Positions 30,629 through 49,857 of a DNA stretch of 64,000 bases are shown here, one piece after another (position 1 is the first letter of the stretch; every line of letters starts with the position of its first letter). The translations under genes were made by a program, and so were the position numbers. Origin of the DNA: Blastococcus sp. CT_GayMR16 (GTDB taxonomy: Bacteria > Actinomycetota > Actinomycetes > Mycobacteriales > Geodermatophilaceae); the NCBI RefSeq assembly GCF_004570875.1, contig NZ_SPQK01000014.1:1-64000 (forward strand), given 5' to 3'. The notes under the pieces are model-generated. The model made no database searches, had not been told where the DNA came from, and worked only from the letters and a program-made list of their open reading frames with translations.

Positions 30629-31669
30629 TCAGCGGTCGCGGTCGACCATGAAGGGCACGAGGTCGCGCACGAATCGGCGGGCGGGCGAGTCGGGCACGCC
30701 GGCGAAGGCCTCCTCGAAGGTCAGGGCGGCCGACCGGGCGATGCCGCGGGCGAACTCGTCGGCGAAGGCGACGCTCCCGTGGTCGTGCATCATCGCCAGG
30801 ATGCGGGCGGCGATGTCGCCGGTCCGCTGGGCCGGCTCCAGGGCCAGGTAGCCGGCGACGGACGCGCGGTCGCGGGCGCTCGCCGCGGCCAGCAGATGGA
30901 TGACCATCAGCGTCCGCTTCCCCTCGCGGAGGTCGCCGAGCGCTTCCTTCCCGTACAGGGCGGTGGACCCGGTGAGGTTCAGGATGTCGTCGCGGATCTG
31001 GAAGGCCGCCCCCAGGAAGAAGCCGAAGCGGAGCATCGCGTCGAGGTCCGGTGACCGGCCTCCACCCGTGCCCGTGCCGATCAGCGCCCCCACCCGCAGC
31101 GGCAGCAGCGTGGTGTACCAGCAGGTCTTCCGCATGATCAGGTCGAGGTAGTCGTCCGGCGTGAGGTCGATGCGGCCGTCCCGTTGCCAGCCCAGCTCGC
31201 GGGCCTGCCCGTCGACGGTCAGCCGGGCCATGAAGTCGAACTCCGACCAGATCCGGGCGGCGAGACGGCGGCCGAGCGGGCCCTCGTTGTCCCGGAGCGC
31301 CCCCAGCGCGAGCACCGCGAGGCCGTCGCCGGCGTTGACGGCCAGCCCGCGGCCGTACTGCTGGTGCAGGGTGGCCTCGCCGCGGCGCAGCTCGCTGTCG
31401 TCCTCGACGTCGTCGTGGACGAGGAAGGCCGTGTGCAGGAGCTCGAGTGCCGCCGCCGACGGCAGGGCGTCGTCGGCCTCGCCGCCGAAGGCCTCGCAGG
31501 TGGCCAGGCACAACGCGGGCCGCAGGCCCTTGCCGCTCCGGCCGAGGTACTCGGCGGCGGGAGCCCGGAGGTACTCCGACATCCCTTCGGCCGGGAGGTA
31601 CGAGTGCACCGCCCGGCGGGACATGACGCCGTACCGCTCGAGCTCGTCGGCGAACCCGGGGACGGTCAT
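30629..31669 (-). CDS. Polyprenyl (geranylgeranyl-type) diphosphate synthase
   Basis: A 346-residue all-alpha trans-prenyltransferase condensing isopentenyl with allylic diphosphates. The first Asp-rich motif is VHDDVED (Asp86, 87, 90), the second AFQIRDDILNL, with KGLRPA and GKEALGDLREGKRTL (substrate Lys/Arg region). The chain length made is not readable with confidence. It is the last gene of the five-gene operon; its ATG overlaps the stop of unknown protein B (ATGA at 31666-31669), which argues that its product feeds that pathway. Confidence 0.92.
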   Translation of the reverse strand: MTVPGFADELERYGVMSRRAVHSYLPAEGMSEYLRAPAAEYLGRSGKGLRPALCLATCEAFGGEADDALPSAAALELLHTAFLVHDDVEDDSELRRGEATLHQQYGRGLAVNAGDGLAVLALGALRDNEGPLGRRLAARIWSEFDFMARLTVDGQARELGWQRDGRIDLTPDDYLDLIMRKTCWYTTLLPLRVGALIGTGTGGGRSPDLDAMLRFGFFLGAAFQIRDDILNLTGSTALYGKEALGDLREGKRTLMVIHLLAAASARDRASVAGYLALEPAQRTGDIAARILAMMHDHGSVAFADEFARGIARSAALTFEEAFAGVPDSPARRFVRDLVPFMVDRDR

Positions 31670-32280
31670 GGGCCGGACTCCCGCGGAGCGCGCACCGCCA
31701 AGCGTAGCACCATCGGCTCGGCGGGCGCCGCGGAGGTCATCACCAGGCCGAAGTAGCAGCCGGCGGGTTGCGCGGCAGGCACCACGACGCGGACCCGTAC
31801 CTCCTGGGAGGTGCCGGCCGCCAGGAGGCCGACCCGATCCGGCACGACCGACAGCGCGTCGGCGCCGATGCGGTGCCCGTCCGACGCCACCAGGCCCGAC
31901 ACGGTGAGGCCGATCCCCGGTGCCGCGGACGACGTCGTGTTGTGGATCCAGAACGACGCCCCGGTGCCGGAACCGGGCTCCGTGGCGGGCAGGACGAGCG
32001 TCGGGGTGGCCTCGTCGTGGGCGCCCTCGCTGCGGAGCAGGGTCGAGGTCGCATCGACCAGCCGGGACCAGGCCCCGGCCATCGCGACGGCGGTGTCCAC
32101 CATGCGGCCGGACCCGGCGTCGTCGAGCGGGGCCGACGCGGCCGGCCCGTGGCGCGAGATGGCCCGATCGACGATCTCGGCATACCGGTCCACCACCGCG
32201 GCGGCCGAGAACAGGCCGAACCGCTGCACCTCGCCCACGAGGTCCCACGCCCCGGCAGCGAGGCCCGGCCCCGCGGTCAT
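31666..32280 (-). CDS. Unknown protein B of the isoprenoid operon
   Basis: A 204-residue protein I do not recognise. Residues 1-85 are predicted helical (AWDLVGEVQRFGLFSAAAVVDRYAEIVDRAI). The rest looks all-beta and ends in a strand pair, PAGCYFGLVMTSAAPAEPMVLRLAVRA, reminiscent of Ig-like domains with a P-G-Y-G turn. No signal peptide or membrane span is present. It is fixed between the FAD enzyme and the prenyl synthase by 4-nt overlaps at both ends, so it is probably a dedicated component. Its C-terminal half resembles the end of unknown protein A in pattern, not in clear identity. Confidence 0.75.
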   Translation of the reverse strand: MTAGPGLAAGAWDLVGEVQRFGLFSAAAVVDRYAEIVDRAISRHGPAASAPLDDAGSGRMVDTAVAMAGAWSRLVDATSTLLRSEGAHDEATPTLVLPATEPGSGTGASFWIHNTTSSAAPGIGLTVSGLVASDGHRIGADALSVVPDRVGLLAAGTSQEVRVRVVVPAAQPAGCYFGLVMTSAAPAEPMVLRLAVRAPRESGP

Positions 32281-34325
32281 GCCGCGGTCCCGCGTGAGGC
32301 GGGCCGTCCCACGGCGCCGGACAGGACCGCCCGGGCCGCCAGGACGCCGGAGCGCGCGGCGGCCTCGATGCACCCGGCGTCGAGGCCGCAGGCGGTCCAG
32401 TCGCCGGCGACGGCGAGGTTGACGAAGCCTGTCCGCCCCGGAGCCAGCCGGTGCCGCCCGGATCCCGGAAGGGACTGCACGTAGCGGTCGGACGGGTCGA
32501 CGTTCGCCCGGACGTACTGCGCGTGCAGTCGCTCCGGCCCGGCCCGGCCCGCGGCGTCCCACAGCAGTTCCCACCGGAAGCCCGGCCAGAGCGCGGCCAC
32601 CTCGCCGTCGAGGAACTGGGTCAGCGTCGTCCGGACGGTCTCGTCGCCGGTTTCCGTATCCCCGTCGGGCAGCGCGCCGCACAGGTAGGCGATGCTGCGC
32701 GGCGCACCGGGGGAGGGCCACTCCTCGCGCGGCAGGAGGTGGGACATCGACGCCCACGTGTCGAACGTGTCGCCGAAGCCGGAGAGGGTGACGCCGGGCG
32801 GGCCGTGCCACCCCAGCTCGCGCTCCGATGCGTCGAGCCACAGCTGGGCCGAGCGCGTGCCCACGGTGGCGACCCGGTCCACCATGGTCTGCCAGGCCGG
32901 GTCGGCGGCCACCAGTTCGGCGGCGACGTGCGGAACCATGCCGACGGACACCGCCAGCACGGCCACGTCGAAGTCCTCGCCGGCGCGCAGCGTCTCGGTG
33001 CCGGCTCCCTCCATCGGTCCTGGGTGGGATTCCAGCCGGTCGCCGGGATCTTCGGCGAGCTGGTCGACGAGCGGCCGGTCCGGCCAGCACGGAAGTCCGC
33101 CGACCCGGATCAGCGGGTCGTACCGGCTCCTCCCGGGCGCCAGGTCGGACTGCCGCGTGAGCTCGATCGAGGCCACGGAGCGCGCGGGACCGAGCCGCAG
33201 CCGGTCGAGCCGGCGGAAGAACCGGAACTCCACGCCCCGCCGGACGAGCGCCTGGTAGAGGGGGGCGAACACGATCTCGCCCATCCCGGCCTGCATCCGC
33301 CAGAAGAGCGAGCCCTTGAAGTCGAAGAGCATGCGCCCGGCGAGCGAGAGGCCGAGACCCGCGGCGAACCGCGGCCGGGCCCGGTCGCCCCCGACGTAGG
33401 CGAAGGTGAGGTCGTACATGCCGCGCACGACGGGGGAGTCCAGGGTCTCGGCGGCGGCGCCGTGACCGGCCAGCCACTCCCGGAAGTCGAGGTGGTCGAT
33501 GCGGTCGTAGCCGTTCCCGGCGAGCAGGCCGTCGGCCGCCATGCCCTGCAGGCACGAGACGACCAGGTCGACCAGTTGCCACGTCCGTCGCAGCGCCGGG
33601 TCCGCCGTGAGGGCGGCCCGGACGTCGTCGCGGGAGGTGCGGAGCGCGGCGGCGAGGGACTGCGCGAGCGGGATCTCCCGGAGGCCGCCGGCGGCCAGGC
33701 GCGACGTCCGCTCGAGCCCCTCCAGCAGGGCGGCCAGCGCCGCGAGGGAGGCGCCGCGCAGCAGCGGGGCCAACTCGGAGCGTCCTGGGCCCGGGACGGG
33801 GGACGTGCTCAGGAAGATGCGGCCCCGCTCCCGCGGGAGGGCGGCGCTGCGGAGGAAATCGGCGAGGAGGCCGAGCCCGCGCGTCGCCACGTCCACCGGC
33901 GTCAGCGTCCGGTCCTCGGCCCCGGGTTCGCCGGGAACGGCGTCGTTGCCGGAGAACCGGGTCACGAAGGAGGTCCACGAGTCGCCGTCCCGGTCGGCGA
34001 GGCCCACGTCCCCCGTCGGCGTCACCGCCTGCTGCCACGTCCGGACGGGGCACCCCGGGTCGGTGCGGTCCCGGTCCAGCTCGCCGTAGACCTCCCGGAG
34101 GAGACGGAACGTGGCGTCGTAGTAGCCCAGCAGGACGTGCAGCCCGTGTTCCTCGATCCGTCCGTGCGGGCCACGGCTGCTGGCGCCCTTGCCCCCGAGA
34201 CGCCAACCGCGCTGGTAGACGCAGATGGAGTCCAGCCGTTCGCGCCAGTCGCCGGAGCTCAGCTCCCAGGCGGTGGTGAGTCCCGCCATCCCTCCGCCGA
34301 GGACGACGACGCGCGGGAGCGGCAC
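32277..34325 (-). CDS. FAD-dependent desaturase/amine-oxidase-like protein
   Basis: A 682-residue flavoprotein of the phytoene-desaturase/zeta-carotene-desaturase-like superfamily. The FAD ADP-binding motif is VVVLGGGMAGLTTAWEL with GWRLGGKGASSRG shortly after, and the C-terminal FAD site is VAGDWTACGLDAGCIEAAARSG. A large insertion in the middle distinguishes it from CrtI. Start GTG at 34325 lies 1 bp after the preceding gene's stop. With a prenyl diphosphate synthase two genes away, oxidation of a terpenoid is likely, but substrate and position are unknown. Confidence 0.85.
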   Translation of the reverse strand: MPLPRVVVLGGGMAGLTTAWELSSGDWRERLDSICVYQRGWRLGGKGASSRGPHGRIEEHGLHVLLGYYDATFRLLREVYGELDRDRTDPGCPVRTWQQAVTPTGDVGLADRDGDSWTSFVTRFSGNDAVPGEPGAEDRTLTPVDVATRGLGLLADFLRSAALPRERGRIFLSTSPVPGPGRSELAPLLRGASLAALAALLEGLERTSRLAAGGLREIPLAQSLAAALRTSRDDVRAALTADPALRRTWQLVDLVVSCLQGMAADGLLAGNGYDRIDHLDFREWLAGHGAAAETLDSPVVRGMYDLTFAYVGGDRARPRFAAGLGLSLAGRMLFDFKGSLFWRMQAGMGEIVFAPLYQALVRRGVEFRFFRRLDRLRLGPARSVASIELTRQSDLAPGRSRYDPLIRVGGLPCWPDRPLVDQLAEDPGDRLESHPGPMEGAGTETLRAGEDFDVAVLAVSVGMVPHVAAELVAADPAWQTMVDRVATVGTRSAQLWLDASERELGWHGPPGVTLSGFGDTFDTWASMSHLLPREEWPSPGAPRSIAYLCGALPDGDTETGDETVRTTLTQFLDGEVAALWPGFRWELLWDAAGRAGPERLHAQYVRANVDPSDRYVQSLPGSGRHRLAPGRTGFVNLAVAGDWTACGLDAGCIEAAARSGVLAARAVLSGAVGRPASRGTAA

Positions 34326-34326
34326 G

Positions 34327-37300
34327 TCAGGAGCCGAGGAGGTCGTCGGCCGCGGCCGTGTCGTCGGTGACCGGCGCCGGGGGCAGGTCGGCCCTCGCCT
34401 CGGCGAGCACGGTGCGCCAGTCGTCGGGCCGGGCGGCCGCAGGCACGCGCGCCAGCTGGACGGCGGCGCGCAGTCGGGCCACCCGCGCCCCCTGCTCGGT
34501 CGCGATGCGGACTGCCTCGGTCAGGTCGGCCACCGCCCGGTCGGCGTTCCCGCCGCGGGACAACGTGTAGAGGGCGCGCTGCCGCAGGAGCTCGGGCAGG
34601 TGCAGGTTCTCGCCGGCCTTGTGCACCAGGAGGAGCGCCTCGTCGATGAGCTCCGCGGCCCGTTCGACGTCGTCCGCCTGCGCATGGAGGTGCGCGAGGT
34701 AGGCCAGCGCCGAGGCGACGAAGGCCTCGTGGCCCATCAACCGCAACGTCGCGATGGCCTGCTCGAGGAACGCCCGGTCGGCGGCGAGGTCCGGCGTGTC
34801 CGCGGCGAGGTAGGCCGACCCCAGGGAGATCCAGTAGGCGTAGCCGTGCAGCTCACCGAGGGCGACGACCTCGGCCCCGAGCCGGCGGGCGGCGTCGTGG
34901 TCCCCGAGGAAGCGCCGGATGAACGCGGCGTAGGTCTTGACGAACGCGAGGCTGAACGGGCCGCGCGGGAACCCGACCTCCTCGGCGCGGCGGATCGCCT
35001 CCCGCTCCCAGTGCTCGGCTGCTGCCCGTTCCCCCCGGACGGCGCTGACGCAGGCCAGCGCGATCGTCGAGGCGGCGACGGGGTCGTTGGGCAGGGGCCA
35101 GAACGGGGAGACGGTCTGCTCGGGGGGCCGGTCGGCGAAGCCCTCGACGGCGCGCTCCAGCTGGGCTTGGGCAGCGCCGAGGTGGCCCTCGTAGAACTCG
35201 AGGTAGCCCGCGCAGGACTGCACCTCCGGCTCGAACCAGCTGAAGGCGGCCTGGCCGACCATGCTGAGGAGCCGGTCGATCACCCCCTGGGCCGTGGTCA
35301 GGTCGCCGCTGGTGAGCCAGACACCCCAGATGGCGATGAGCGAGGGCAGCACCTCCGCCCGCCCGAGGCGGGTGGCCAGCACCTCGGCCCGCCGGTGGTC
35401 GGCCTGGACCTCCGGCGCGGCGTAACCCCGCATCGAGCTGACGCTCAGCGCGCGGAGCATCCGGGCGGTGAGCTCGGTCAGGTCCCGCTCGTCCGACCCC
35501 GGCAGTTCCTGCACCAGCTCCACGGCACGCGACAGCAGCCGGGCCGCCTCGAGGTTCGCCCCGCGTCCCTGCTCCGCCTGGGCGGACACGATGTAGAGGC
35601 CGGCCGCCCGCTGGGCCTCGCCCGCCAGGTCCAGGTGCTGGGCGATCAGCGCGGGCTCGCCGTCGTGGGCGGCGATCGTGTCCGCCACGGCCGCATGGGT
35701 GGCCCGCCGCACATCGAGTACCTGGGTCTCGTAGGCGGCATCGCGCATCAGGGCGTGGCGGAACCGGAAGGTCCCTGCCGACGGGCCGACCGGTTCGACG
35801 ATGCCCTCGTCGGCCAGCAGCCGGAGCTGCTCGGTCACTGCGTCCTCGTCGCCGATGACCGAGGAGACGGTGGCGGCGTCGAAGGTCGGCCCCACGGTGG
35901 CGGCCACCTGGACGACGCGCAGGTTGACGCCGGGTGCCTTCAGCCGGGACGTGAACAGCTCCTGGAGCCGCAGCGGGATCGATTTGTCGCGGGTGGCGTC
36001 GAGATAGGAGCGGGTGAGCTCCTCGATGAACAGCGGGATCCCCTCGGCCTGGTCGATGACCGAGGCCCGCCGGTCACCCGCCAGCTCCTCGCCGGCGGCC
36101 AGGTTGTCGATCAGGGCCGTGGCGGCGCTCGGGTCGAGCCGACCGAGGTGGAGGACGCAGACCGTTCCGGTCCACGGGATCGGTGCCGCGTCGCGGGTCG
36201 TGGCCACGGTGAGGAGCCCGGGGGGCAGTCGTTCGACCAGCCTGCCGAGCATGGCGAGCGTGGACGGGTCCGCCCAGTGCAGGTCCTCGACGACCAGCAG
36301 TCGCGGCGCGACCCCCGCCAGTGCCGACACCCACTCCACGAGCCGGTTGAGGGTCTCGTCGAGGAAGGCGGTCGGGTCGAGCTCCGGAGCGGGGAACCCG
36401 GGGGCGGCCACCCCGATGAGGGCGCCGAGGAACGGGACCGACCGCGCCGGGTCCAGGCCGAGCGCGGTGAGGTGGGTGACGAGCGGCTCGAGGCGGTCGG
36501 GATCGCCCGTCTCGCCGAGCACCCGCTCGAGCAGCCGGGCCAGGGGCCACAGCGAGACGTTGGCGTAGTAGGGGAGGCAGCCCACCCCGAGCACCCGGCC
36601 GCCGCTGGCCTCCACCCGGTCGAGAATCTCTGCGACCAGCCGGGACTTGCCGATGCCCGCCTCGCCGACCAGCAGGAACGCCGCGCCCGCCGACGGGCCG
36701 GTGCCCTCGCGGACGCCGTCCCACGCGTCCAGCATCCGTTGCCGGGGCTCCTCCCGGCCGACCAGGCCCGCCTTCCGGTACCGCTCCACCTCGAAGCGAG
36801 CCGCCGCGTAGCGAGGGCGTTCCACCGCGAAGACCTCGACCGGGCGGCTGATGCCCTTCATCTGCCGCTCGCCGAGGGAGTGCATGTAGAAGTCGGCGTC
36901 GACCAGCTGCCGGGTGACGTCGCTGATCACCACCATGCCGGGCTCGGCCGCCTGCTGGATCCGGGCGGCCAGATTGGTCACCAGACCGACGATCGAGTCA
37001 CGCTCGGCGACGGAGGGGTCGGTGCTCAGGTCGGTGACCACCACCCGGCCGGTGTGGATGCCGACGCGGACCTCGGGGGCGACGCCGAAGCGCCGGGCCA
37101 ACTCGGTGTGGGCGTCCCGCAGGGCCACACCGAGATCCAGACCGGCGAGGACGGCCCGCCGGGCGTCGTCCTCGTGCGGTTCCGGGTACCCGAAGGCGGC
37201 GAGGATGCCGTCGCCCAGGTACTGCATGACGTAGCCGCTGTAGCGGCTCACGGCCTCCCGGGCCGCCGTCCGGTAGAAGGCGTAGATGTCCCGGAGCTGC

Positions 37301-37578
37301 TCGGGTTCGACCCGCTCGGACAGCATGGTGGAGCCCACCAGGTCGGAGAACAGGATGGTCATCAGTGCCCGTTCCCCGGACGGGCCCAGCTGGCGGGCGG
37401 CGACGAGTCGGAGGATGCGGGCAGCGCGCGGGTTGTCGGGATCGACGGCGCGCACCTCCTCGGCGGTCACCCGGGCCGGTTCGAGGTCACTGGCCGCCAG
37501 CGACGTCTCCGCGGCGGTCAGCAGACGTTCGAGCAGCCGGTCGAGCCTCGTCTCCGCCGAGGACGTGAGAGAGGCCAC
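34327..37578 (-). CDS. Class III adenylate/guanylate cyclase-AAA ATPase-TPR regulator
   Basis: A 1083-residue multidomain regulator. After a short helical start comes a class III cyclase domain: TILFSDLVGSTMLS (metal Asp79) and QYLGDGILAAFGYPEPHED (second metal Asp). Then an AAA/STAND ATPase with Walker A LLVGEAGIGKSR and Walker B LLVVEDLHW, and an alpha-helical TPR-rich C-terminal half. It probably senses protein or metabolite partners and makes cAMP or acts as an ATP switch. GTG at 37578 starts 5 bp after unknown protein A. No DNA-binding domain is seen. It belongs to the same operon as the isoprenoid enzymes. Confidence 0.9.
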   Translation of the reverse strand: MASLTSSAETRLDRLLERLLTAAETSLAASDLEPARVTAEEVRAVDPDNPRAARILRLVAARQLGPSGERALMTILFSDLVGSTMLSERVEPEQLRDIYAFYRTAAREAVSRYSGYVMQYLGDGILAAFGYPEPHEDDARRAVLAGLDLGVALRDAHTELARRFGVAPEVRVGIHTGRVVVTDLSTDPSVAERDSIVGLVTNLAARIQQAAEPGMVVISDVTRQLVDADFYMHSLGERQMKGISRPVEVFAVERPRYAAARFEVERYRKAGLVGREEPRQRMLDAWDGVREGTGPSAGAAFLLVGEAGIGKSRLVAEILDRVEASGGRVLGVGCLPYYANVSLWPLARLLERVLGETGDPDRLEPLVTHLTALGLDPARSVPFLGALIGVAAPGFPAPELDPTAFLDETLNRLVEWVSALAGVAPRLLVVEDLHWADPSTLAMLGRLVERLPPGLLTVATTRDAAPIPWTGTVCVLHLGRLDPSAATALIDNLAAGEELAGDRRASVIDQAEGIPLFIEELTRSYLDATRDKSIPLRLQELFTSRLKAPGVNLRVVQVAATVGPTFDAATVSSVIGDEDAVTEQLRLLADEGIVEPVGPSAGTFRFRHALMRDAAYETQVLDVRRATHAAVADTIAAHDGEPALIAQHLDLAGEAQRAAGLYIVSAQAEQGRGANLEAARLLSRAVELVQELPGSDERDLTELTARMLRALSVSSMRGYAAPEVQADHRRAEVLATRLGRAEVLPSLIAIWGVWLTSGDLTTAQGVIDRLLSMVGQAAFSWFEPEVQSCAGYLEFYEGHLGAAQAQLERAVEGFADRPPEQTVSPFWPLPNDPVAASTIALACVSAVRGERAAAEHWEREAIRRAEEVGFPRGPFSLAFVKTYAAFIRRFLGDHDAARRLGAEVVALGELHGYAYWISLGSAYLAADTPDLAADRAFLEQAIATLRLMGHEAFVASALAYLAHLHAQADDVERAAELIDEALLLVHKAGENLHLPELLRQRALYTLSRGGNADRAVADLTEAVRIATEQGARVARLRAAVQLARVPAAARPDDWRTVLAEARADLPPAPVTDDTAAADDLLGS

Positions 37579-37583
37579 GGTGC

Positions 37584-39164
37584 TCAGGCCCCCGTGGCCT
37601 GCGAGACGTAGAAGTGCACGGGGGCGAGCAACCGGCCGTCCGGGGTGTTGAGGTCGCCGACGTACAGCCCGTGCGGGACCGTTGCATCGCGTACCTGCAC
37701 CCGCGCCCCGACCGTCCCGTCCGGGAGCGCCTGCACGGTGACGGCGACGTCCCGGGCGGGGATGGTGGCGGTGCTCGCGTCGATGGACAACAGATCGGTG
37801 CACACCAGCCGGTCGGACCCGGTGAGCCCGGGCACCATGACGACGCTCCCCCCGACGTCGGCGGGAGCGGCGCCCGCCGCGGTCGTGCCTCCGCGGCGAC
37901 CGGCCTCACGTGGCATCCCCGGCGGCGTCAACCCGGCGTCGAGCCCTTCCCGGGCGATCTCGTCGACGGTGTCCGTCCACACGTTCCACGCCGTGGCCCA
38001 GTCCTTGGCGAGCCGGGACCAGACCACCGCGCTGTCGGCCAGGACATCGTCGGCCGAGTACGCCCTCGACCGGATCCGGGACGTCGCGTCGCTGCCCAGC
38101 TCGATGTAGGGACGGGCGGAATCGGCCAGGAACGTCGCCCAGGCATCCATGGTGGTGACGCACGAGGACGGGTCGAGAGGGGGAGTGTGCGTCGGTTCGG
38201 TCGGCACGCTCTTGGTGCCGCCCTCCACGGCAGCGCGGATCCAGTCCGTCCAGAACGGGCACACCAGCCGGGCGACGCGGTCCCACCAGTCGTCGGTGAA
38301 GCTGACGATCTTGAGCACCTGCACCCGCCGTGCCGTGCCCAGCTCGGTGACGAGGAGGAAGCCCCGGTCGACGTCGATCTCCCGGTCGAGGCTGACGTCG
38401 AGGTCGTAGGTCATGCCGGCCGCGCCCTGGCCCCGCCAGTAGCTGCAGCGGAGCAGCGTGTTCACCAGCTTGACGAGGCGCACCTCCTCATGGAAGACGC
38501 CGTGCCAGTGCTGGTCGGCGGCCGGGGGCGGGCTGATGTCGATGGGAGCGGGCGGGGACAGGAGCAGCTCCATCCGCCGGAAGAACGCCGGCCCCCATCT
38601 CGACCAGTTGCGGGGATCGACCCAGTCGGCCACGTGCTCGAAGGGTGCATCGGTTTCGAACTCGGAGAAGACCCACGTCGCGCGGACGCCGCCGATCTTC
38701 ACCTCCCGGATCGTGCAGACGTTCTCGCCGACGAACGCCGTCTCGTGGTGGGCGAAGGCCGACGCGCTGCGCGTCGTGTCGAACGGGACGCCGTCGGCCG
38801 CCGATCGGACGAGATCGTCCAGGAGGTCCTCCGGCGCGAGATCCGGGGCGTCGCGCTCGGGCCGATCGCGTCGGAGCGCCAGGGCGGAGTCCACCACGCC
38901 GCGGTACTCGTCCTGGAGGGACTCGTGGTCGGGCAATCCGGCCCGCGCCACGTCGTACAGGACGGCGAGGCGCTCCGATACCGGGATCTCCTCCGCGGAG
39001 GCCGCGGCGACGCGCCGCAGGCAGCCGCCGACCGTGAGGTCGCGGAACTCCGGCAGCACGCCGAGGTCGATGTCGCTGAAGTCAGGCGACTGGGCGTGGA
39101 GGAAGTAGAGGGCGCGGTAGCGGGCTTCGACGTCCGGGTCGCCGGTGTCCGGGGGGAGTGTCAT
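37584..39164 (-). CDS. Unknown protein A of the isoprenoid operon
   Basis: A 526-residue protein I do not recognise. Residues 1-140 are helical. The middle (about 150-300) has aromatic-rich strands, FEHVADWVDPRNWSRWGP and MTYDLDVSLDREIDVDRGF, with an SRPBCC-like feel (deep hydrophobic pocket domain). The C-terminal ~90 residues are beta, ending GLYVGDLNTPDGRLLAPVHF, like the P-G-Y-G pattern of protein B. No secretion signal or membrane span is present. It is the first gene of the operon. A lipid- or terpenoid-binding role is a guess from the fold impression and the neighbours. Confidence 0.75.
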   Translation of the reverse strand: MTLPPDTGDPDVEARYRALYFLHAQSPDFSDIDLGVLPEFRDLTVGGCLRRVAAASAEEIPVSERLAVLYDVARAGLPDHESLQDEYRGVVDSALALRRDRPERDAPDLAPEDLLDDLVRSAADGVPFDTTRSASAFAHHETAFVGENVCTIREVKIGGVRATWVFSEFETDAPFEHVADWVDPRNWSRWGPAFFRRMELLLSPPAPIDISPPPAADQHWHGVFHEEVRLVKLVNTLLRCSYWRGQGAAGMTYDLDVSLDREIDVDRGFLLVTELGTARRVQVLKIVSFTDDWWDRVARLVCPFWTDWIRAAVEGGTKSVPTEPTHTPPLDPSSCVTTMDAWATFLADSARPYIELGSDATSRIRSRAYSADDVLADSAVVWSRLAKDWATAWNVWTDTVDEIAREGLDAGLTPPGMPREAGRRGGTTAAGAAPADVGGSVVMVPGLTGSDRLVCTDLLSIDASTATIPARDVAVTVQALPDGTVGARVQVRDATVPHGLYVGDLNTPDGRLLAPVHFYVSQATGA

Positions 39165-39485: not shown

Positions 39486-40223
39486 TCAGGAGGAGCGGTC
39501 GGCCCCCGCCGTGGCCGGTAGGCCGTTCTCCGCGTCCTCGGCGGGCATCTCGCCCGCGGTGTTGCCGACGAACGTCGTCGTCGAGGTGCCGTCGCGCTGC
39601 GCCGGGGGCCGCATCCGCCCCGGCGGCAGGGCGGCCGGGTCGGCGCGCCCCCACTCGTTCTCGACGCCGGCGAGCAACGCCTCCAGGTAGGAGCGGAGCT
39701 GGGTGCGGGTGGCCTGGCCGAAGGCCTTCAGGTAGGCCACCTGCTCCTGGAGCTCCTCGACGTTGCGGTCGCCGGCCTCGGGGGTGCCCGGGGTCATCCG
39801 GGCCGCGGCCTCCTGGGCCGCCTGGATGATCGCCCCCGCGTTCTCCCGGGCCTGGCGGATCTCCTCCTCGTACGTGGTCCGCGCCTCGCTGGTCATCTGG
39901 CGGCTGAACTCCTCCGCCTCGGCGACGTAGTTGTCCGCGGTCTGCTGGGCGGCGGACAGGATGCGCACCGCCTGGTCGCTGGGCGCATCCGGGATCACCA
40001 CGCCGTCGACCTGGGCCTGCAGGGAGCGCACGTGGTCACGCAGCGCCGCCTTCTCGGCGTAGAGGCGGCCGAGTTCCTCGGCGACCCGGCTCAGTACCCG
40101 GTCCACCTCGGAGTCGACGTAGCCGGGCCTCATCATCGAGGCGCGGGTGAACCGCACGTTGTGCAGGTCTGCCGGTGTGAGACCTCGGTCGCCGTTGGCG
40201 GACATCTCGTGGTCGGTGGTCAT
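39486..40223 (-). CDS. DivIVA-domain coiled-coil protein
   Basis: A 245-residue protein. The N-terminal LTPADLHNVRFTRASMMRPGYVDSEVDRVLSRV is the DivIVA/Wag31-type membrane-curvature domain, followed by a long coiled coil (LGRLYAEKAALRDHVRSLQAQ ... EEFSRQMTSEARTTYEEEIRQAR). The last ~50 residues are disordered. Such proteins recruit growth or septation factors at poles. This is probably not the main Wag31, which has a different length and neighbourhood. Its ATG overlaps the stop of the globin-reductase gene (ATGA), an unexpected coupling. Confidence 0.88.
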   Translation of the reverse strand: MTTDHEMSANGDRGLTPADLHNVRFTRASMMRPGYVDSEVDRVLSRVAEELGRLYAEKAALRDHVRSLQAQVDGVVIPDAPSDQAVRILSAAQQTADNYVAEAEEFSRQMTSEARTTYEEEIRQARENAGAIIQAAQEAAARMTPGTPEAGDRNVEELQEQVAYLKAFGQATRTQLRSYLEALLAGVENEWGRADPAALPPGRMRPPAQRDGTSTTTFVGNTAGEMPAEDAENGLPATAGADRSS

Positions 40224-41359
40224 TCGGTCACCTCTCCGTCAACACTGGGCCCCGGTCGGCTGGGGGCGAAGATCTCCATGGAAATTCGTTCGCTGGGTAC
40301 GCCGTGCTGGACGAGCCGGCTCACGGTGTCCTCCACCATGACGGCCGGGCCCGCCACGCAGATCTCCCGGCTGGACCACGGTCCGTGGCGCAGGACCACG
40401 TCCCCGACGTCGCCGTGCTCCAGGGAGGAGATCTTGTCCTCGGAGACCGCGTACGTGACGGTCAGCCAGGGGTTGTCGTGCTGGAGCCGCTGCAGGTCGG
40501 CCCGGTCGTAGATCTGGTCCTCGGTGCGGTTGCCGACGAACAGGTCGACGCGTCGGGCCGGGCCCTTGCGGGCGACCTGGTCGATCAGGGCCTTCAGCGG
40601 GGCCAGGCCCATGCCGCCGGCGACGAGGAGGAGGTCGCGGTCGGACTCGCCGTCCAGGGCCAGGTGCCCCACCGGCGGGCCCAGCCGGAGCACGTCACCG
40701 ACGCCGGTCCGGCGCACCAGCGCGGAGCTGACGGGGCCGCCGTCCCGCGCCTTGACGTGGATCTCCAGGAGACCGTCCGGGCGCGGTGCGTTGGCCGGTG
40801 AGTAGTAGCGCCACAGCCGCGGCCGGAGATCGGTCTCGAGCGAGACCGACTGCCCGGCCAGGTAGTCGTAGCGCGCGCGGGGCCGCACCTGCAGGACGGC
40901 GACGTCGATCGTGCGGCGCTCGTGGGCGACGACATCGGCCTCCCACCACGCGGGCTGCTCGGCGGCCTCGTCGGCCGCCGCGACCATCACCTCGGCCACC
41001 AGGGTGTAGGCCTCGGTCCAGTCCTTGGCGAGCTCCGGCGTCCACTCGTCGTCGAAGTGCTCCAGCGTCGCGAGCAGGCTGGCGCCGACGGCGGGATAGT
41101 GCGCCGCCACGGTCCCGAACTTCCGGTGGTCGCGCCCGAGCTGCTGCAGGATCGGCACCAGCGCGTCCAGGTCGTCGACCCGCGCGACGACGTCGCCGAG
41201 GGCCGAGAAGAGCCGGTCGCGCTGGTGGGCCATCGACACCGGGAACAGCTGCCGGGTCTCCGGATGGCTGAGGAACAGGTGCGAATAGAAGTAGAGCGGG
41301 GCCTCGTCCCCGGTCGCGGCGGACTTGGCGAAGTTGGCCCGCATCGCGGGAATGTCCAC
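40220..41359 (-). CDS. Flavohemoglobin-like globin/FAD reductase (first of a pair)
   Basis: A 379-residue two-module protein: an N-terminal globin domain (about 1-135, with YFYSHLFLSHPETRQLF and RDHRKFGTVAAHY containing the proximal His), then a ferredoxin-reductase-like part. The FAD motif is RYYSPA and the NAD site LLLVAGGMGLAPLKALI. It should oxidise nitric oxide to nitrate using NAD(P)H, though substrate preference is not shown. The globin is a group distinct from the Hmp upstream. It overlaps the DivIVA-like gene by 4 nt and follows hmp after 78 bp, so the three are probably co-transcribed. Confidence 0.9.
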   Translation of the reverse strand: MDIPAMRANFAKSAATGDEAPLYFYSHLFLSHPETRQLFPVSMAHQRDRLFSALGDVVARVDDLDALVPILQQLGRDHRKFGTVAAHYPAVGASLLATLEHFDDEWTPELAKDWTEAYTLVAEVMVAAADEAAEQPAWWEADVVAHERRTIDVAVLQVRPRARYDYLAGQSVSLETDLRPRLWRYYSPANAPRPDGLLEIHVKARDGGPVSSALVRRTGVGDVLRLGPPVGHLALDGESDRDLLLVAGGMGLAPLKALIDQVARKGPARRVDLFVGNRTEDQIYDRADLQRLQHDNPWLTVTYAVSEDKISSLEHGDVGDVVLRHGPWSSREICVAGPAVMVEDTVSRLVQHGVPSERISMEIFAPSRPGPSVDGEVTE

Positions 41360-41437: not shown

Positions 41438-42703
41438 TCAGCCGGCCGCGGGGGCGCTCCGCTCGGTCGCGCCGGGGGTCTCCTCGGTCGCGAGATCGGC
41501 CTGCCAGAGATCCGGCCCGAACACCTCGTACTGGATGTCGCGGGCGGCCACCCCGAGGTCGATGAGGGCGCTGCGGACCGCCTGCATGAAGGGCAGCGGG
41601 CCGCAGAGGTAGTACCCGGCGTCGTCCGGCAGCTTGACGTCGTCGAGGTCCATCTTCCCGGCGTGCACCTCGATCGGCAGCGGGCTCTCCGCGCTCTGCC
41701 CGTCGTCACGGCGCTCGTACCAGACGTGCGCGGCGGCGCCGGGCAGGAAACGGACGTCCTCGAGCACCTGCTTCCGGAGGGCGAAGGACTCCTCGTCGAC
41801 GTCGGCGTGCAGCAGGGTGATCGGCAGGTGCGACCCGGCCGCCGCCAGGTGGGAGAGCATGCCGGCCATCGGGGTGATGCCGATGCCGGCGCTCGCGAAC
41901 ACGACGGGGCGGGAGTCGTCGAGGACGACGTCGCCGAAGGGGAGCGACGTCGTCAGCCGGTCACCGACCTGCACCGACTCGCAGAGCAGGTTGGACACCT
42001 CGCCCTCGGGCTTGCCGTTCCCCCGCACGCGCTTCACCGAGAACTGGCGGTGCTCGCCGTCGTCGGCCTTCGTGAGGCTGTACTGCCGCGGCTGTCGCAC
42101 GCCGTCGGGCGTCGGCACCTGCACGGTCACGTACTGGCCGGGCAGCGAGGTCTTCACGATGCGGTCGTCGGTCTTCCGGAGCCGGAACGTCACGACGTCC
42201 GCGGTCTCCTGGATCTTCTCGGCGACCTCCCACTCGCGCCAGACCGTCTCCGGCCGCACGCCGCGGGCGCTGTAGAGGCCGCGCTCCTGGTTGATCAGCG
42301 CGTAGGCCATCAGCCAGTAGACCTCGTCCCACGCGGCGGCCACCTCGGGTGTGACGGCGTCGCCGAGGACGTCGACGATCGCCCAGAACAGGTGCTCGTG
42401 GACGACGTCGTACTGCGCCGGCGTGATCCCGAGGGAGGCGTGCTTGTGCGCGATCCTCGAGAGCAGGTGCTCGGGCAGCTGCTCCGGCACCTGCACCAGG
42501 GAGCTGGCGAAGACCGCGACGGATCCGGCGAGGGCCATCTGCTGCGTCTTCTCGGCCTGGTTGCCGCGGTTGAAGACGCCGTCCAGGAGTTCGGGGTGTT
42601 CCCCGAAGAGGTGGAGATAGAAGCGGGTCGCGATCTCTTCGATGTTCTCCGCGACGACGGGGAGCGTCGCCTCGATCACGGGTCGGGATCGGTCGGAAAG
42701 CAC
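41438..42703 (-). CDS. hmp: Flavohemoprotein nitric oxide dioxygenase (Hmp)
   Basis: A 421-residue classical flavohemoglobin. The globin part has IATRFYLHLFGEHPELLDGVFN and IAHKHASLGI with the proximal His. The FAD motif is RQYSLTK, the NADPH site FASAGIGITPMAGML, and the C-terminal YLCGPLPFMQAVRSAL is standard. It detoxifies nitric oxide to nitrate with O2 and NADPH. The GTG at 42703 has an excellent AAGGAG site, so I prefer it over upstream in-frame codons. It is divergent from the DMT-like gene. Confidence 0.95.
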   Translation of the reverse strand: MLSDRSRPVIEATLPVVAENIEEIATRFYLHLFGEHPELLDGVFNRGNQAEKTQQMALAGSVAVFASSLVQVPEQLPEHLLSRIAHKHASLGITPAQYDVVHEHLFWAIVDVLGDAVTPEVAAAWDEVYWLMAYALINQERGLYSARGVRPETVWREWEVAEKIQETADVVTFRLRKTDDRIVKTSLPGQYVTVQVPTPDGVRQPRQYSLTKADDGEHRQFSVKRVRGNGKPEGEVSNLLCESVQVGDRLTTSLPFGDVVLDDSRPVVFASAGIGITPMAGMLSHLAAAGSHLPITLLHADVDEESFALRKQVLEDVRFLPGAAAHVWYERRDDGQSAESPLPIEVHAGKMDLDDVKLPDDAGYYLCGPLPFMQAVRSALIDLGVAARDIQYEVFGPDLWQADLATEETPGATERSAPAAG

Positions 42704-42879
42704 GTGGTCTCCTTGCCAGTCGACGAGCCCCCCGCTGGCAGCGGTCACGTTCCGCTTGTCTTGCGTTACCCGTTCTACCCGATGGCAGGCGATCGAGTTC
42801 CGCCCGGGCGTGTCGCCGGCGTCCGGATCCGGTCCTCCGGCTCTGTCTGCGAAGGGTCTTCCTAGGGCATACCTGACGC

Positions 42880-43827
42880 ATGCATCCCGTCGAGGCTCCG
42901 TCGAGCAACGCAGGTGTCGGGCTGTTGCTCGCGACGCTGGCGGCGGTGCTGTTCGCCGTGGGAGCCGTCCTTCAGCACGAGGCGGCGGACCTGAGCCGGA
43001 CGCCGACGGGGCTGAGCCTCCGTCTCCTGGTGAAACGGCGGCGGTGGATGCTGGGCCAGGCCGCCACCATGCTCGGCACCACGTCGCAGGTGGCCGCGCT
43101 TGCCGTCGCGCCGGTCGCGGTGGTGCAACCGATGCTCGCGGCGGCACTGGTCGTCGCCCTCGCGATCCGGGCGGTCCGCAACAAGCAGGCGCCGCTGCGG
43201 CTGGAGCTGCTGGGCGCCGCGCTGACGACCGGCGGGCTGGCGGTCTTCCTGCTGGCTGCCCAGCCGGCCGCGGGCCACCTGGCGGCCCCGCCGTCCACAC
43301 TCGAGATCGCCGTCGCGGTCGTCGTCTCGATCGCCCTCGTGGCCGGGGCCACCCTGTTCGGGCACGGGGCCCACGGGGCGCTCGCCTGCGGGGCCGCGGC
43401 CGGGATCGCCGCAGGGATCGGCGCCGTGCTCATCTCCGTCGGGATCCGGAGCCTCCGGGAGGGGGGCTGGGTGCATGCCTTTGCCGGCGTGGCGGTCTGG
43501 GGAGCGATCGTGGTAGCCGTCGTCGCCGTTCTGGGCGGGCAGCAGGCCTACGCGCGGGGCTCGCTGGCCTGGTCCCTGCCGGCCCTCATCCTGCTCGACC
43601 CGCTCGCCGCCGTCCCCGCCGCGCGGCTGCTCCTCGGGGAGCGCCTGGAGCCCGGCCACGCCGCCATCTGGATCCCGGCAGCCGTCGTCGCCGCCATCGG
43701 CGTCGTCGTGCTCGCACGTACCGGCGAACGGCGTACCCGGGCGCACTCGTTGTCGCCGGCCGCCCGAGGGGCCGAGGGGTCCCCGCCGGAGGCCCCGCCG
43801 GTCAGCGACCGACGGTCATCGACGTGA
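42880..43827 (+). CDS. DMT-like multi-spanning membrane protein
   Basis: A 315-residue protein with about nine to ten hydrophobic helices, starting GVGLLLATLAAVLFAVGAVLQHEA, and two half-repeats as in drug/metabolite transporter (EamA/NIPA-like) proteins. The conserved VAVVQPMLAAALVVAL and SLAWSLPALILLDPLAAVPAARLLLGERL segments mark the family. The substrate is unknown; magnesium-transporter-like (NIPA) relatives exist. The cytoplasmic tail of ~40 residues is disordered. It overlaps the convergent cyclophilin gene by 26 bp. Confidence 0.85.
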   Translation: MHPVEAPSSNAGVGLLLATLAAVLFAVGAVLQHEAADLSRTPTGLSLRLLVKRRRWMLGQAATMLGTTSQVAALAVAPVAVVQPMLAAALVVALAIRAVRNKQAPLRLELLGAALTTGGLAVFLLAAQPAAGHLAAPPSTLEIAVAVVVSIALVAGATLFGHGAHGALACGAAAGIAAGIGAVLISVGIRSLREGGWVHAFAGVAVWGAIVVAVVAVLGGQQAYARGSLAWSLPALILLDPLAAVPAARLLLGERLEPGHAAIWIPAAVVAAIGVVVLARTGERRTRAHSLSPAARGAEGSPPEAPPVSDRRSST

Positions 43828-47140: not shown

Positions 47141-49765
47141 CTAGGTCGTCCCCTCCGTCAGGGCCTCGAAGGTCCGGTCCAGCGCCTGGGGGGACGGCCA
47201 CTGCCGTGCCTCGGCGACGGCCGCGTCGTAGGCCTCGTCCCCGAGCTGGCGGCGGGCCCGGTCGGCGACGTCGTCCAGCAGCGGCGGCAGGGCCGGCGCG
47301 CGGGGGAGGGCCAGGTGTTCCCGCATCGACGTCGCCGCGGCCAGCGCCTGGGCCGCCACGTCCGGCCGCCCGTCCCCCAGGGCGACGGCAGCCAGGCCCT
47401 CGAGGGCGTACGCGATCGCCGTCGGCTGGCCCCCGCGGCGATTGGCGGCCGCACCGTCCATGACCGACCGCCGGGCGCCGGCGAGATCGCCCCGCGCCAG
47501 CAGGACCAGGCCACGGGAGCTGAGGGCCTGGCCCGTCAGCGACTCGTCACCGAGGCGCCCGGCGAGTTCCAGGGCCGCCCCGTAGTGCTGTTCCGCGGCC
47601 TCGAGATCCCCCAGCATCAGCGCGAGCTCTCCGCCGAACACCTCCATGAAGGCCCGCCCCAGGTCCTGGCCGAGGGCGGCGAAGCGGCCGGCGGTCTCCT
47701 CGATGCCGTGGGCCCACTTCTCCACCGACCCCTCGGCCATCGCCGCGTAGATGCCGGCCATGGCCGCCAGCGCGCGGTCGTAGGCGTGGTCGTCGTCGTC
47801 CGGGAGGAGGTCCAGGCCCTCGTCCAGCAGCGGCCGGACGGCGGGCAGGTCGACGAACACCCCGGCGAGGAGTGCGCGGAGGACCAGGAGTCGCCCCCGC
47901 ACGGCTGAGGTGGACCTGGGCAGCGCCTGCTCCAGCCACGCGACGGCCTCCCGCTCACCGCTGCGCCGCACCAGGTAGCCGAGTGCGTTCCGGATGAGCA
48001 GGGCGGCCGTCTCCAACCGTCCGGTGTCGATGGCGCGCTGTACTGCCGCCCGGACGTTGGCCCGCTCCTGGTCGAAGCGCTCGAGTGCCCGCCGGAAGGC
48101 GGTGGCCTCGGCGTGGACCAGCGGATCCGTCATGGCGAGGACCCACTCGGCGTGCCGGTGCCCGGTCTCGGCCCCGTCCGGGGAGGCGGCCAGCTTCTCC
48201 GCCGCGTAGGCCCGCACCGTCTCGAGCATGTCCAGGCGTGGCTCCGGGGCGGTTCCGTCGACGTCGACCAGCAGGCTGTCGTCGAGGAGGACGGCGAGGG
48301 TGCCGAGGACCTCCGGCTCGCCCGCCCGGCCGCAGACCGTCTCCGCCGCCGTCAGCGTCCAGCCGCCGGCGAAGATCCCGAGCCGGGCGAACAGGGTCTG
48401 CTCGTGGGGCTGGAGCAGGCCGTGGCTCCAGTCCATCGTGGCCCGCAGTGTCCGTTGCCGCTCCGGCAGATCCACGGGCCCGTCGCCGAGCACGTCGAGC
48501 CGGTTCCGCAGGCGGGTGAGCAGTGCGTCGGGCGGGAGCAGCCGCACCCGTGCCGCAGCCAGCTCGATGGCGAGGGGTAGCCCGTCGAGGCGGCGGCAGA
48601 TCTCGGCGACGGCGGGAGCGGTCGTGGCGTCCAGGACGAAGTCGGGCCGGGTCGCGGTGGCCCGCTCGGCGAACAGCTGCATCGCCGGTGTCTCCGGCAG
48701 GGGACCGAGGTGGAACTGCTGCTCGGATCGGAGCCGGAGCACCTGCCTGCTCGTCACCACCGCGACGATGGCCGGCGTCCGGTCCAGCAGCGTCGCGACG
48801 TCGGAGGCCGCCGCCGTGACCTGCTCAAAGTTGTCGAGGACGAGGAGCGTCCGGTCGCCGTCGATCGTCGTGCGGACGGCCTCGACCAGGTCGGCCGCTG
48901 CCTCGCGCCGGGCGCCGACCGCGTCCGCCACGCTGCTCAGGACCAGGGCGGGGTCGGCGACCGGGCTCAGCGCCACGAACACCACCCCGCCCCGGAAGTC
49001 GCCGGCCACCTGGCGGGCGGCCTCGAGGGCGAGCCGGGTCTTCCCGACACCGCCGGGACCCGTGACGGTGACGAGCCGGGTCGATTCCTTGCGGAGGAGT
49101 GCGACCAACGCCGAGACCTCCGCCTCCCGTCCCACGAGCGGCTCGGCAGGTGCGGGCAGCCGCGGCTGTGCGGGAGGGCTGTCCAGCGGCGGGAACTCCC
49201 GGGGCAGGCCGGTGACGTCCAGCTGCGAGAGCGGTACCGGGCCGGGGAAGTCCTTGAGCCGGTGCGGGCCGAGCGAGCGCAGGGCCGTGCCCTGAGGCAG
49301 GTGCTCGCCGGCGAGCACCGCCGTGACGTCGGACAGCAGGATCTGCCCCCCGTGGGCGGCAGCAGCGATCCGGGCGGCCTGGTGGACGGGCAGTGCGACG
49401 TAACCGCCACCGGTGACGGCGGCGTCCCCGGTGTGGAGTCCCATGCGGACGCGGACGTCGCGCCCCTCCGGCCATGCGTGGCCGGCCAGCGACTGCTGTG
49501 CCTCGGCGGCGGCCGCCAGGGCCTGACCGGCGGACGGGAACGCCACGAAGAACGAGTCGCCCTGGGTGTCGACCTCCTGACCGCCATGGGCGGCGAAGGC
49601 ATCCCGCAGCAGGCGGCGGTGGACGGCGAGGGAGGCGGCGTAGCCCGGGGGGTCAGCGCGGAGCAGGCGGGTGGAGCCCTCGATGTCGGTGAACAGGAAG
49701 GTCACCGTGCCGGTGGGCAGGGTGCCGGCACGTGGCGGGTCGACCGCGGTGCGCTCGTCGGCCAT
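47141..49765 (-). CDS. Class III cyclase-NB-ARC/TPR signalling protein
   Basis: An 874-residue regulator. The N-terminal cyclase homology domain has FLFTDIEGSTRLL (metal Asp27) and DTQGDSFFVAF. A STAND/NB-ARC-type ATPase follows with Walker A GPGGVGKTRLALEAA, LLVLDNFEQ (Walker B) and IELAAARVRLLPPD. A TPR-like C-terminal half closes it. No helix-turn-helix is seen, so it is a signalling protein without DNA binding. ATG at 49765 has an AGGGGGC site. The decayed gene at 53.4-54.8 kb is a relative. Confidence 0.88.
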   Translation of the reverse strand: MADERTAVDPPRAGTLPTGTVTFLFTDIEGSTRLLRADPPGYAASLAVHRRLLRDAFAAHGGQEVDTQGDSFFVAFPSAGQALAAAAEAQQSLAGHAWPEGRDVRVRMGLHTGDAAVTGGGYVALPVHQAARIAAAAHGGQILLSDVTAVLAGEHLPQGTALRSLGPHRLKDFPGPVPLSQLDVTGLPREFPPLDSPPAQPRLPAPAEPLVGREAEVSALVALLRKESTRLVTVTGPGGVGKTRLALEAARQVAGDFRGGVVFVALSPVADPALVLSSVADAVGARREAAADLVEAVRTTIDGDRTLLVLDNFEQVTAAASDVATLLDRTPAIVAVVTSRQVLRLRSEQQFHLGPLPETPAMQLFAERATATRPDFVLDATTAPAVAEICRRLDGLPLAIELAAARVRLLPPDALLTRLRNRLDVLGDGPVDLPERQRTLRATMDWSHGLLQPHEQTLFARLGIFAGGWTLTAAETVCGRAGEPEVLGTLAVLLDDSLLVDVDGTAPEPRLDMLETVRAYAAEKLAASPDGAETGHRHAEWVLAMTDPLVHAEATAFRRALERFDQERANVRAAVQRAIDTGRLETAALLIRNALGYLVRRSGEREAVAWLEQALPRSTSAVRGRLLVLRALLAGVFVDLPAVRPLLDEGLDLLPDDDDHAYDRALAAMAGIYAAMAEGSVEKWAHGIEETAGRFAALGQDLGRAFMEVFGGELALMLGDLEAAEQHYGAALELAGRLGDESLTGQALSSRGLVLLARGDLAGARRSVMDGAAANRRGGQPTAIAYALEGLAAVALGDGRPDVAAQALAAATSMREHLALPRAPALPPLLDDVADRARRQLGDEAYDAAVAEARQWPSPQALDRTFEALTEGTT

Positions 49766-49857
49766 GTCGCCCCCTGGTGGTCGCGCATCTCCAGGCCAGC
49801 CCGTCGGCGGCAGGATAGGGACGCCGGCAGCAGGGAACCAGAGGCATCCCGCTGACG

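Follow-up and report, generated by a model that had tools for sequence, protein, structure and literature searches.

Here, we describe a group of five genes in a window of 64,000 nucleotides of Blastococcus sp. CT_GayMR16 (contig NZ_SPQK01000014.1, positions 1 to 64,000 of the forward strand). In the order in which they would be transcribed, the genes encode protein A, a class III nucleotide cyclase fused to an AAA_16 ATPase (the regulator), a flavin adenine dinucleotide (FAD)-dependent oxidoreductase (the FAD enzyme), protein B, and a trans-polyprenyl diphosphate synthase (PPS) (Table 1). The preliminary description of this DNA listed five minus-strand genes over 30629-39164 with gaps or overlaps of 5, 1, −4 and −4 nt, and we reproduce these values from the open reading frames and the choice of start codons; the GTG start of the cyclase-ATPase is the earliest ATG, GTG or TTG past the stop codon of A. 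Because PPS is bounded downstream by a convergent gene for a CMD/peroxidase-related protein, which ends at 30616 (Pfam and NCBIfam), and A is separated by 321 nt from the end of an upstream DivIVA-like gene (Pfam), the five genes look like a single transcription unit.

Table 1. Genes of the five-gene locus and their domains, with coordinates in the window
Feature	Position	Strand	Basis and remarks
Gene A, 526 aa	37584-39164	minus	ATG start; predicted helical N-terminus, START/SRPBCC-like domain, two long helices and immunoglobulin (Ig)-like C-terminus
START-like domain of A, residues ~150-313	38226-38717	minus	AlphaFold2 model and Foldseek
B-like half of A, residues ~332-520, two helices and Ig-like domain	37605-38171	minus	hhalign and model
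Class III nucleotide cyclase-AAA_16 ATPase regulator, 1083 aa	34327-37578	minus	GTG start
Guanylate_cyc domain of regulator, residues 73-250	36829-37362	minus	PF00211, 3.2e-17, and motifs
AAA_16 ATPase domain of regulator, residues 272-453	36220-36765	minus	PF13191, 5.3e-20; Walker A/B-like motifs
FAD oxidoreductase, 682 aa, distantly HpnE/phytoene-desaturase-like	32277-34325	minus	GTG start; Pfam/NCBIfam and tree
Gene B, 204 aa, two helices and PapD/MSP/NEW3-like Ig domain	31666-32280	minus	ATG start; model, Foldseek and profiles
Ig-like domain of B, residues ~94-196	31693-32001	minus	pLDDT blocks of 90-98
Trans-polyprenyl diphosphate synthase (PPS), 346 aa, module-specific clade	30629-31669	minus	ATG start; PF00348, 181.6 bits

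Several lines of evidence, all from sequence comparison, indicate that the five-gene arrangement is not due to chance. First, the genes recur together. A scan with the FAD enzyme confirmed at least 574 relatives, and co-occurrence was counted around the best 80 of these, i.e., among the nearest relatives only (L001, L023 and L024 were excluded from the neighborhood counts as duplicates or near-duplicates, L024 being identical in contig stretch to L031 and L023 resembling L020). Counted as complete frames, as in all neighborhood and tree counts and in those for the acetoacetate-decarboxylase-like (ADC) protein introduced below, B is present in 58 of the 80 loci and PPS in 53, with both genes in 53; the cyclase-ATPase was counted in 57 loci, A in 28, and all five genes in 26. 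Once frames left open at contig ends are included for B and PPS, B is present in 59 loci, PPS in 58 and both in 58; PPS was recovered in all five loci that had shown only B (L067, L068, L069, L086 and L090), PPS never occurs alone, and the contig end falls inside B in the only locus with B alone, L094. Second, the genes keep their arrangement. In 51 of the 55 loci holding both, B and PPS share a strand and B lies immediately upstream, the FAD gene is immediately ahead of B in 35 of 60 loci, and in L031 B and PPS form one open frame of 548 aa. The complete order A-cyclase-FAD-B-PPS is found in Ornithinimicrobium pekingense (L029) and in metagenome-assembled genomes (MAGs) of an Acidimicrobiia member (L030), an actinobacterium (L031) and Tetrasphaera (L064). 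Most Mycobacteriaceae loci have PPS and B in divergent orientation to A and the FAD-cyclase pair, and the unit is thus conserved through rearrangement. Third, B follows its closest FAD partners across the phylum. The FAD protein was matched at an E value of 0.001 in 18 of 396 genomes, its own included; five of the others are long matches (L002 to L006), and the remaining 12, short pieces that mostly cover the FAD-binding end, were dropped. Strong full-length B matches (E ≤2e-38) occur in four of the 396 genomes (G000, G132, G449 and G247), and these are exactly the genomes with an FAD relative at least 49% identical, while G422 and G315, which have more distant FAD genes, are without B. A further 20 of the 396 genomes have weak B matches only (E 3.3e-7 or worse), which we read as unrelated Ig-like domains or chance. 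Fourth, with three PPS genes and six cyclase domains in a genome of 4.52 Mb, the chance of a PPS or cyclase neighbor within 10 kb is ∼1-3%, by arithmetic from this one genome. By their record titles, the genomes with the module belong to the Actinobacteria, Acidobacteria, Gemmatimonadetes, Myxococcota, Proteobacteria and Cyanobacteria. Thus, the genes that the preliminary description had proposed to form one system are conserved together far beyond close relatives.

The history of the FAD enzyme ties B and PPS to one part of its family. In a quick maximum-likelihood tree (LG+G4) of 89 FAD proteins, which has several long branches and is unrooted (with a midpoint root for drawing), all 61 B-bearing rows, i.e., 60 loci and the window, fall inside a set of 69 rows. 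This set consists of groups of 34 and 35 rows that are joined, with one more row, L076, at an SH-aLRT support of 99. None of the 20 rows outside the set has B or PPS in the stretches examined. Eight rows inside it have no listed B; L094 has the cut B mentioned above, and in the other seven (L036, L037, L041, L043, L058, L066 and L088), in which neither B nor PPS was seen, a contig end is no more than ∼1 kb away, on at least one side, from the FAD gene, the cyclase gene or A, so that the absence of B and PPS from these rows is uncertain. Raw parsimony for B on this tree gives nine changes, owing to these contig-end rows. The cyclase occurs both inside and outside the B- and PPS-bearing clade, and its association with the FAD enzyme may therefore be the older one. 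Among eight loci compared, the window proteins are nearest to those of L064 and L029 (69 and 66% identity, respectively, for the FAD enzyme, 65 and 60% for the cyclase, 73 and 74% for PPS, 46 and 36% for B, and 42 and 46% for A). The FAD gene is found in distant actinobacteria and many phyla. That the nearest of the compared loci are L064 and L029 while genus-mates are without the FAD gene suggests that the module moves between genomes as a unit.

PPS is a member of the polyprenyl synthetase family (PF00348, 181.6 bits against a cut-off of 27), and both of its aspartate-rich, metal-binding motifs are intact in the alignment. The genome contains three PF00348 genes. Module PPS proteins from different phyla are 39-74% identical to that of the window, compared to 29 and 34% for the two paralogs in its own genome. 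At position −4 from the first aspartate-rich motif, module enzymes have Phe, Met or Leu and three non-module enzymes have Thr or Ala; at position −5, Ala or Ser occurs in both alike. Thus, it is the bulky residue at −4, and not Ala at −5, that distinguishes module PPS from these three enzymes. The window PPS has Ala at −5 and Phe at −4. In mutants of avian farnesyl diphosphate synthase, such an Ala/Phe pair ahead of the first motif has reportedly been linked to a C20 product, and by this analogy our guess is that PPS makes a C20 chain. The only PF00494 match in the genome lies on a different contig (C42), with a second PPS gene 1.7 kb away, and by sequence this is a separate carotenoid-type locus. 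Together, this locus and the module-specific PPS clade with its intact metal-binding motifs argue for a dedicated isoprenoid pathway.

A and B, which the preliminary description had left unrecognized, indeed match no Pfam or NCBIfam family above cut-off. Among 25 members of the A family, no Pfam family was found at E 0.01, and at the same threshold the B family gave weak matches to Ig-type domains (PF22680 in six of 39 members and PF10633 in three of 39). AlphaFold2 models built from alignments of relatives were more informative. The B model (mean predicted local distance difference test score [pLDDT] 82.6) has helices at residues 8-43 and 58-86, predicted with moderate confidence, and a confident Ig-like domain, for which Foldseek returned GH123 accessory, CEP192/HYDIN ASH, MSP and PapD-like domains as neighbors in the PDB. 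In the A model (mean pLDDT 80.4), a START domain of the helix-grip type comes after a helical N-terminal part and is followed by two long helices and an Ig-like domain. In the START region, residues 150-313, the pLDDT blocks are 77-93 except for a low stretch at residues 201-220 (52 and 59); the top Foldseek match is human StAR (E 1.8e-4), and A is thus placed in the START/SRPBCC fold by its predicted structure. In hhalign, residues 334-526 of A matched a profile of non-actinobacterial B proteins with a probability of 93.8 and a small set of window-type B proteins with 55.8. A and B are therefore not two independent unknowns; rather, as judged from profile and model, A appears to be a START protein that carries a B-like half, and the two proteins appear to be related to each other. 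The hydrophobic moments of the long helices are above those of most shuffled sequences, by a modest margin in B (fractions of 0.03 and 0.04); the corresponding fractions in A are 0.01 and 0 of 2000 shuffles. A phasin identity was considered and, by sequence, rejected, as none of the 39 B and 25 A members has a Pfam phasin match at E 0.01. At the N-terminus, 18 of 22 non-actinobacterial B proteins (e.g., those of L056, L061, L063, L065, L077 and L081) share the motif [RKH]-[LIVMFY]-[KRH]-[RK]-x-x-[PL]-x-R-x-x-P-x-R, which was not seen in the aligned actinobacterial B rows and is possibly a docking or targeting peptide.

A as detected is limited to actinobacteria and Acidimicrobiia, and an ADC-like protein recurs in the non-actinobacterial loci; PF06314 was found in three of 10 proteins scanned, twice over the cut-off and once just under it. 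With a profile made from nine ADC-like proteins, 30 of 88 loci have A without ADC, 32 have ADC without A, none has both, and 26 have neither. Of the 32 loci with B but no A, 19 carry ADC. Given the confinement of A to two groups, this mutual exclusivity may reflect a small number of events. Two Archangium loci encode a START protein with remote similarity to A. Against the window-type A set, Myxococcota proteins reached probabilities of 94.6 (L070), 68.2 (L073) and 0.4 (L089), and 95.3 when the three were combined; with the mycobacterial A set, no probability exceeded 17.2. Of the 88 loci, 22 have a saccharopine-dehydrogenase-like gene, and 12 have one for an epimerase-type NAD(P)-binding protein.

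By Pfam, the FAD enzyme is an NAD_binding_8/Amino_oxidase protein. Its best NCBIfam match is HpnE (TIGR03467), with 65 bits against a cut-off of 283, and a further desaturase-type equivalog gave 25 bits against a cut-off of 569; all nine members of the FAD-enzyme alignment match HpnE at E ≤1e-5. Membership in the HpnCDE pathway of hopanoid and squalene synthesis was rejected on the HpnE score. In nine of the 88 loci, every one of them without B, the FAD enzyme is fused to an ADC-like domain. Such fusions outside the B- and PPS-bearing clade include the protein encoded at 7903-11166 of L027 (PF06314 at E 0.0015); the protein encoded at 11956-14862 of L019 has a C-terminal extension that aligns with that of L027 but does not reach the ADC profile. 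On Azospirillum plasmids (L020 and L023), two divergent FAD paralogs lie near genes for ethanolamine ammonia-lyase, outer membrane transport and acetoacetate-decarboxylase-family proteins.

The regulator has a Guanylate_cyc domain (PF00211, 63.1 bits against a cut-off of 21.9) followed by AAA_16 (PF13191). The window protein has the residues at the positions that we take to be the two metal-binding Asp and the catalytic Lys, Asn and Arg, together with a Walker A/B pair, and on the domain, the metal Asp pair, Asn and Arg it is by sequence a class III nucleotide cyclase. The preliminary description had called it a class III cyclase-ATPase-TPR protein; the cyclase and ATPase domains are borne out by Pfam, which names no TPR in the window protein and TPR_12 in its relative of L063. 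Genes for CRP-type regulators are present in 10 of the 88 loci, and all five that were examined combine cNMP_binding and HTH_Crp_2. A second nucleotide-cyclase, NB-ARC/AAA and TPR protein of 1110 aa is encoded at 47141-50473 on the minus strand, ∼8 kb upstream of A, and six PF00211 domains over cut-off are present in the genome. As such regulators are not rare, the link to the cyclase is weaker evidence than the link between B and PPS.

Altogether, we lean toward a model whereby the five genes are inherited together as a module for the synthesis and modification of an isoprenoid, with the cytoplasm as the probable site; the reading that fits best is a dedicated, apparently soluble isoprenoid-processing module under the control of a cyclase/STAND-type ATPase. 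We suggest that PPS would make a medium-length all-trans prenyl diphosphate, perhaps of C20. B, with its helical hairpin and PapD/MSP-like domain, would bind the synthase and hold or scaffold the oily product. The FAD enzyme, a member of the HpnE/phytoene-desaturase superfamily, would then oxidize, reduce or isomerize the chain, and A would carry or convert the intermediate by means of its START pocket; in many non-actinobacterial loci, an ADC-like protein may replace A, sometimes together with a dehydrogenase. Finally, the cyclase-AAA protein may sense a state by nucleoside triphosphate-dependent switching and signal by a cyclic nucleotide, which would be read by a CRP-type regulator where one adjoins. 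Of the dedicated terpenoid or modified prenyl-lipid pathway proposed in the preliminary description, the dedicated isoprenoid module is supported by the PPS clade and the separate carotenoid-type locus, and its product and reaction remain predictions; the built-in cyclic-nucleotide or STAND regulator that it envisaged is plausible given the catalytic residues and the CRP-type neighbors in several loci, with regulation itself being a prediction from these features.

A number of observations weigh against this model. The FAD enzyme is only remotely akin to characterized desaturases (65 bits to HpnE), and its residues 454-472, a stretch of 19 residues, have a mean hydropathy of 1.93; the maximum in the other four proteins is ≤1.39, and the usual threshold for a membrane span is 1.6. 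We take this hydrophobic stretch to belong to the Rossmann-type core. Outside the clade, FAD relatives are without B and PPS in the stretches examined, the FAD gene is present in none of 60 relatives (15 of the same genus; some of these genomes are incomplete), and the fusion of B and PPS is found in a single MAG (L031), where a sequencing indel could create it. As the main puzzle, none of the enzymes by which a prenyl diphosphate is usually processed further (phytoene or squalene synthase, terpene cyclase or UbiA-type enzyme) was recognized among the recurrent neighbors annotated, which were covered by clusters and selected Pfam scans and not in every locus. As for the regulator, the base-selecting position, usually Asp, is Leu in the window cyclase. 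In an alignment of proteins >900 aa from loci with B (42 and the window), four of 43 rows (L068, L070, L073 and L082) keep the ATPase motifs but have lost those of the cyclase, and elsewhere single key residues are changed (L029, L048 and L089, Lys to Arg; L106, Asn to Thr). Moreover, 78 of the 88 loci have no CRP gene in the examined stretch. The loss and variation of motifs imply either that cyclic-nucleotide output is not universal or that some rows are paralogs; judged by these residues, some lineages are likely to have such output, but for others it is doubtful.

Alternatively, the locus could be a known pathway in disguise: the FAD enzyme would be a common desaturase or HpnE that serves carotenoid, squalene or hopanoid synthesis, and the genes for the other steps would lie at other sites in the genome. 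The top families of the FAD enzyme are HpnE and the phytoene and zeta-carotene desaturases, and a PF00494 enzyme is encoded on another contig of the genome. However, the scores are far below the equivalog cut-offs, a separate PPS gene accompanies the PF00494 gene at a distance of 1.7 kb, no PF00494-type gene was recognized among the annotated recurrent neighbors (not every locus was scanned), and, to our knowledge, carotenoid loci do not include B, A/ADC or the cyclase. We consider this explanation unlikely. The preliminary description had noted that the usual crtB phytoene synthase is missing, and PF00494 is indeed absent from the five genes; membership in a carotenoid (crt) cluster was rejected on these grounds and on the low family scores. 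The fusions of the FAD enzyme to an ADC-like domain outside the B- and PPS-bearing clade (nine among 88 loci) bring to mind a different function, in which a FAD and ADC-like core degrades or modifies a hydrophobic compound, acting on an imported lipid or terpenoid, and PPS provides a prenyl anchor or primer. Such a function would also agree with the Azospirillum FAD gene that adjoins an outer membrane transport protein gene and with the EamA-type transporter gene that adjoins the module in 11 mycobacterial loci, although this gene is part of a conserved ribosomal/RNA polymerase/ESX neighborhood. Yet no uptake gene was recognized as common across phyla among the annotated clusters (not every neighbor was annotated), and the confinement of PPS and B to the FAD clade that includes the window suggests that the chain is made rather than imported. 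We find degradation or modification of this kind about as improbable as a disguised known pathway.

Two further explanations appear very unlikely to us. A signaling or defense system with the cyclase-ATPase as its core, the enzymes of which make a lipid effector, would account for the STAND-like AAA domain of the regulator and for its match to the Pycsar cyclase models of PADLOC (best 3e-14). This match spans only the general class III cyclase domain, though, PADLOC has no match for any of the other four proteins, no Pycsar-type effector was recognized among the five genes, and the cyclase was seen in 44 of the 53 loci with B and PPS and not in the other nine, in the stretches examined; assignment to Pycsar was rejected on the PADLOC result. 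An encapsulated or scaffolded compartment, comparable to family 2 encapsulins with a polyprenyl transferase cargo, comes to mind because the best NCBIfam match of PPS is this very cargo protein (NF041169) and because the N-terminal motif in 18 of 22 non-actinobacterial B proteins resembles a short targeting peptide. This motif was, however, not seen in the aligned actinobacterial rows, PPS scores 176.1 bits against a cut-off of 450, and the Linocin_M18 shell (PF04454) is absent from the genome in a search in which three controls were positive; a search of the genome for the SrpI-like family (PF19307) gave no match, nor did it give any in the controls. The missed cut-off and the absence of a Linocin_M18 shell led us to reject a cargo identity for PPS; an encapsulin-type compartment seems to us as remote as a defense system.

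The gene set, which is kept across many phyla and includes two unnamed families, very likely has a specific job. If an isoprenoid is made, this would be by a new route in which soluble-looking proteins act on oily chains, and the families of B and A might serve as scaffolds that hold lipids. The module would also offer a defined pathway for probing what cyclase-ATPase (STAND-like) regulators sense. More speculatively, and in our view rather doubtful, the module could be a widespread membrane-free isoprenoid factory, in which B- and A-type proteins, with their helices and PapD-like domains, would form a new class of scaffold or lipid coat that keeps the synthase, the flavoenzyme and the START or ADC handler together under a cyclase-STAND switch, and which would make a new class of lipid or terpenoid. 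No description of such a module was found in the open-access literature, with most subscription papers and all bioRxiv preprints being outside the scope of the search, and this pathway for oily prenyl molecules is apparently undescribed.

The surroundings of the locus include two neighboring minus-strand genes for proteins with globin and flavoreductase domains (flavohaemoprotein-like), at 40220-41359 (379 aa) and 41438-43300 (620 aa); the larger protein has ∼200 additional N-terminal residues, and the gene for the smaller one overlaps the DivIVA-like gene (39486-40223) by 4 nt. In several mycobacteria (L032, L033 and others), the module occupies a conserved chromosomal site, with rplQ-rpoA-truA and genes for cutinase, an EamA transporter and ESX components (EccB, subtilase) as neighbors. 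The neighbor clusters that are found in mycobacteria only are housekeeping or ESX-region genes, cutinases, a CGNR-type regulator and the EamA transporter, and we read these as chromosomal context.

The components of the module are reminiscent of several known systems and differ from each of them. The regulator aligns over residues 97-1043 to the kinase/cyclase fusions of thiazole/oxazole-modified microcin (TOMM) systems (TIGR03903); however, Pfam names no kinase domain in the window protein, and with 368.4 bits against an equivalog cut-off of 705.75 we rejected membership in this family. The FAD enzyme has the FAD-binding flavoprotein superfamily in common with the hydroxysqualene dehydroxylase HpnE and the phytoene and zeta-carotene desaturases (TIGR03467, TIGR02731 and TIGR02732) but is 682 aa long, scores far under their cut-offs, and has different gene partners in an operon without a squalene or phytoene synthase. 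A shares its predicted helix-grip fold with START/SRPBCC lipid-binding proteins such as StAR, Bet v 1 and polyketide cyclases; in contrast to these, it is coupled to a B-like half of helices and an Ig domain and has no sequence-level match to them. The C-terminal domain of B has the fold of NEW3/NPCBM-associated, GH123-type and PapD/MSP-like Ig domains, with weak sequence similarity, whereas in B, a protein of 204 aa without a glycosidase domain, this Ig domain sits on a helical hairpin. Finally, PPS has full-length homology to short- and medium-chain trans-prenyl diphosphate synthases (PF00348, geranylgeranyl diphosphate synthase types), including both aspartate-rich motifs, and its nearest solved relative is the geranylgeranyl diphosphate synthase 1wmw; unlike these enzymes, the module PPS proteins form a separate clade tied to B.

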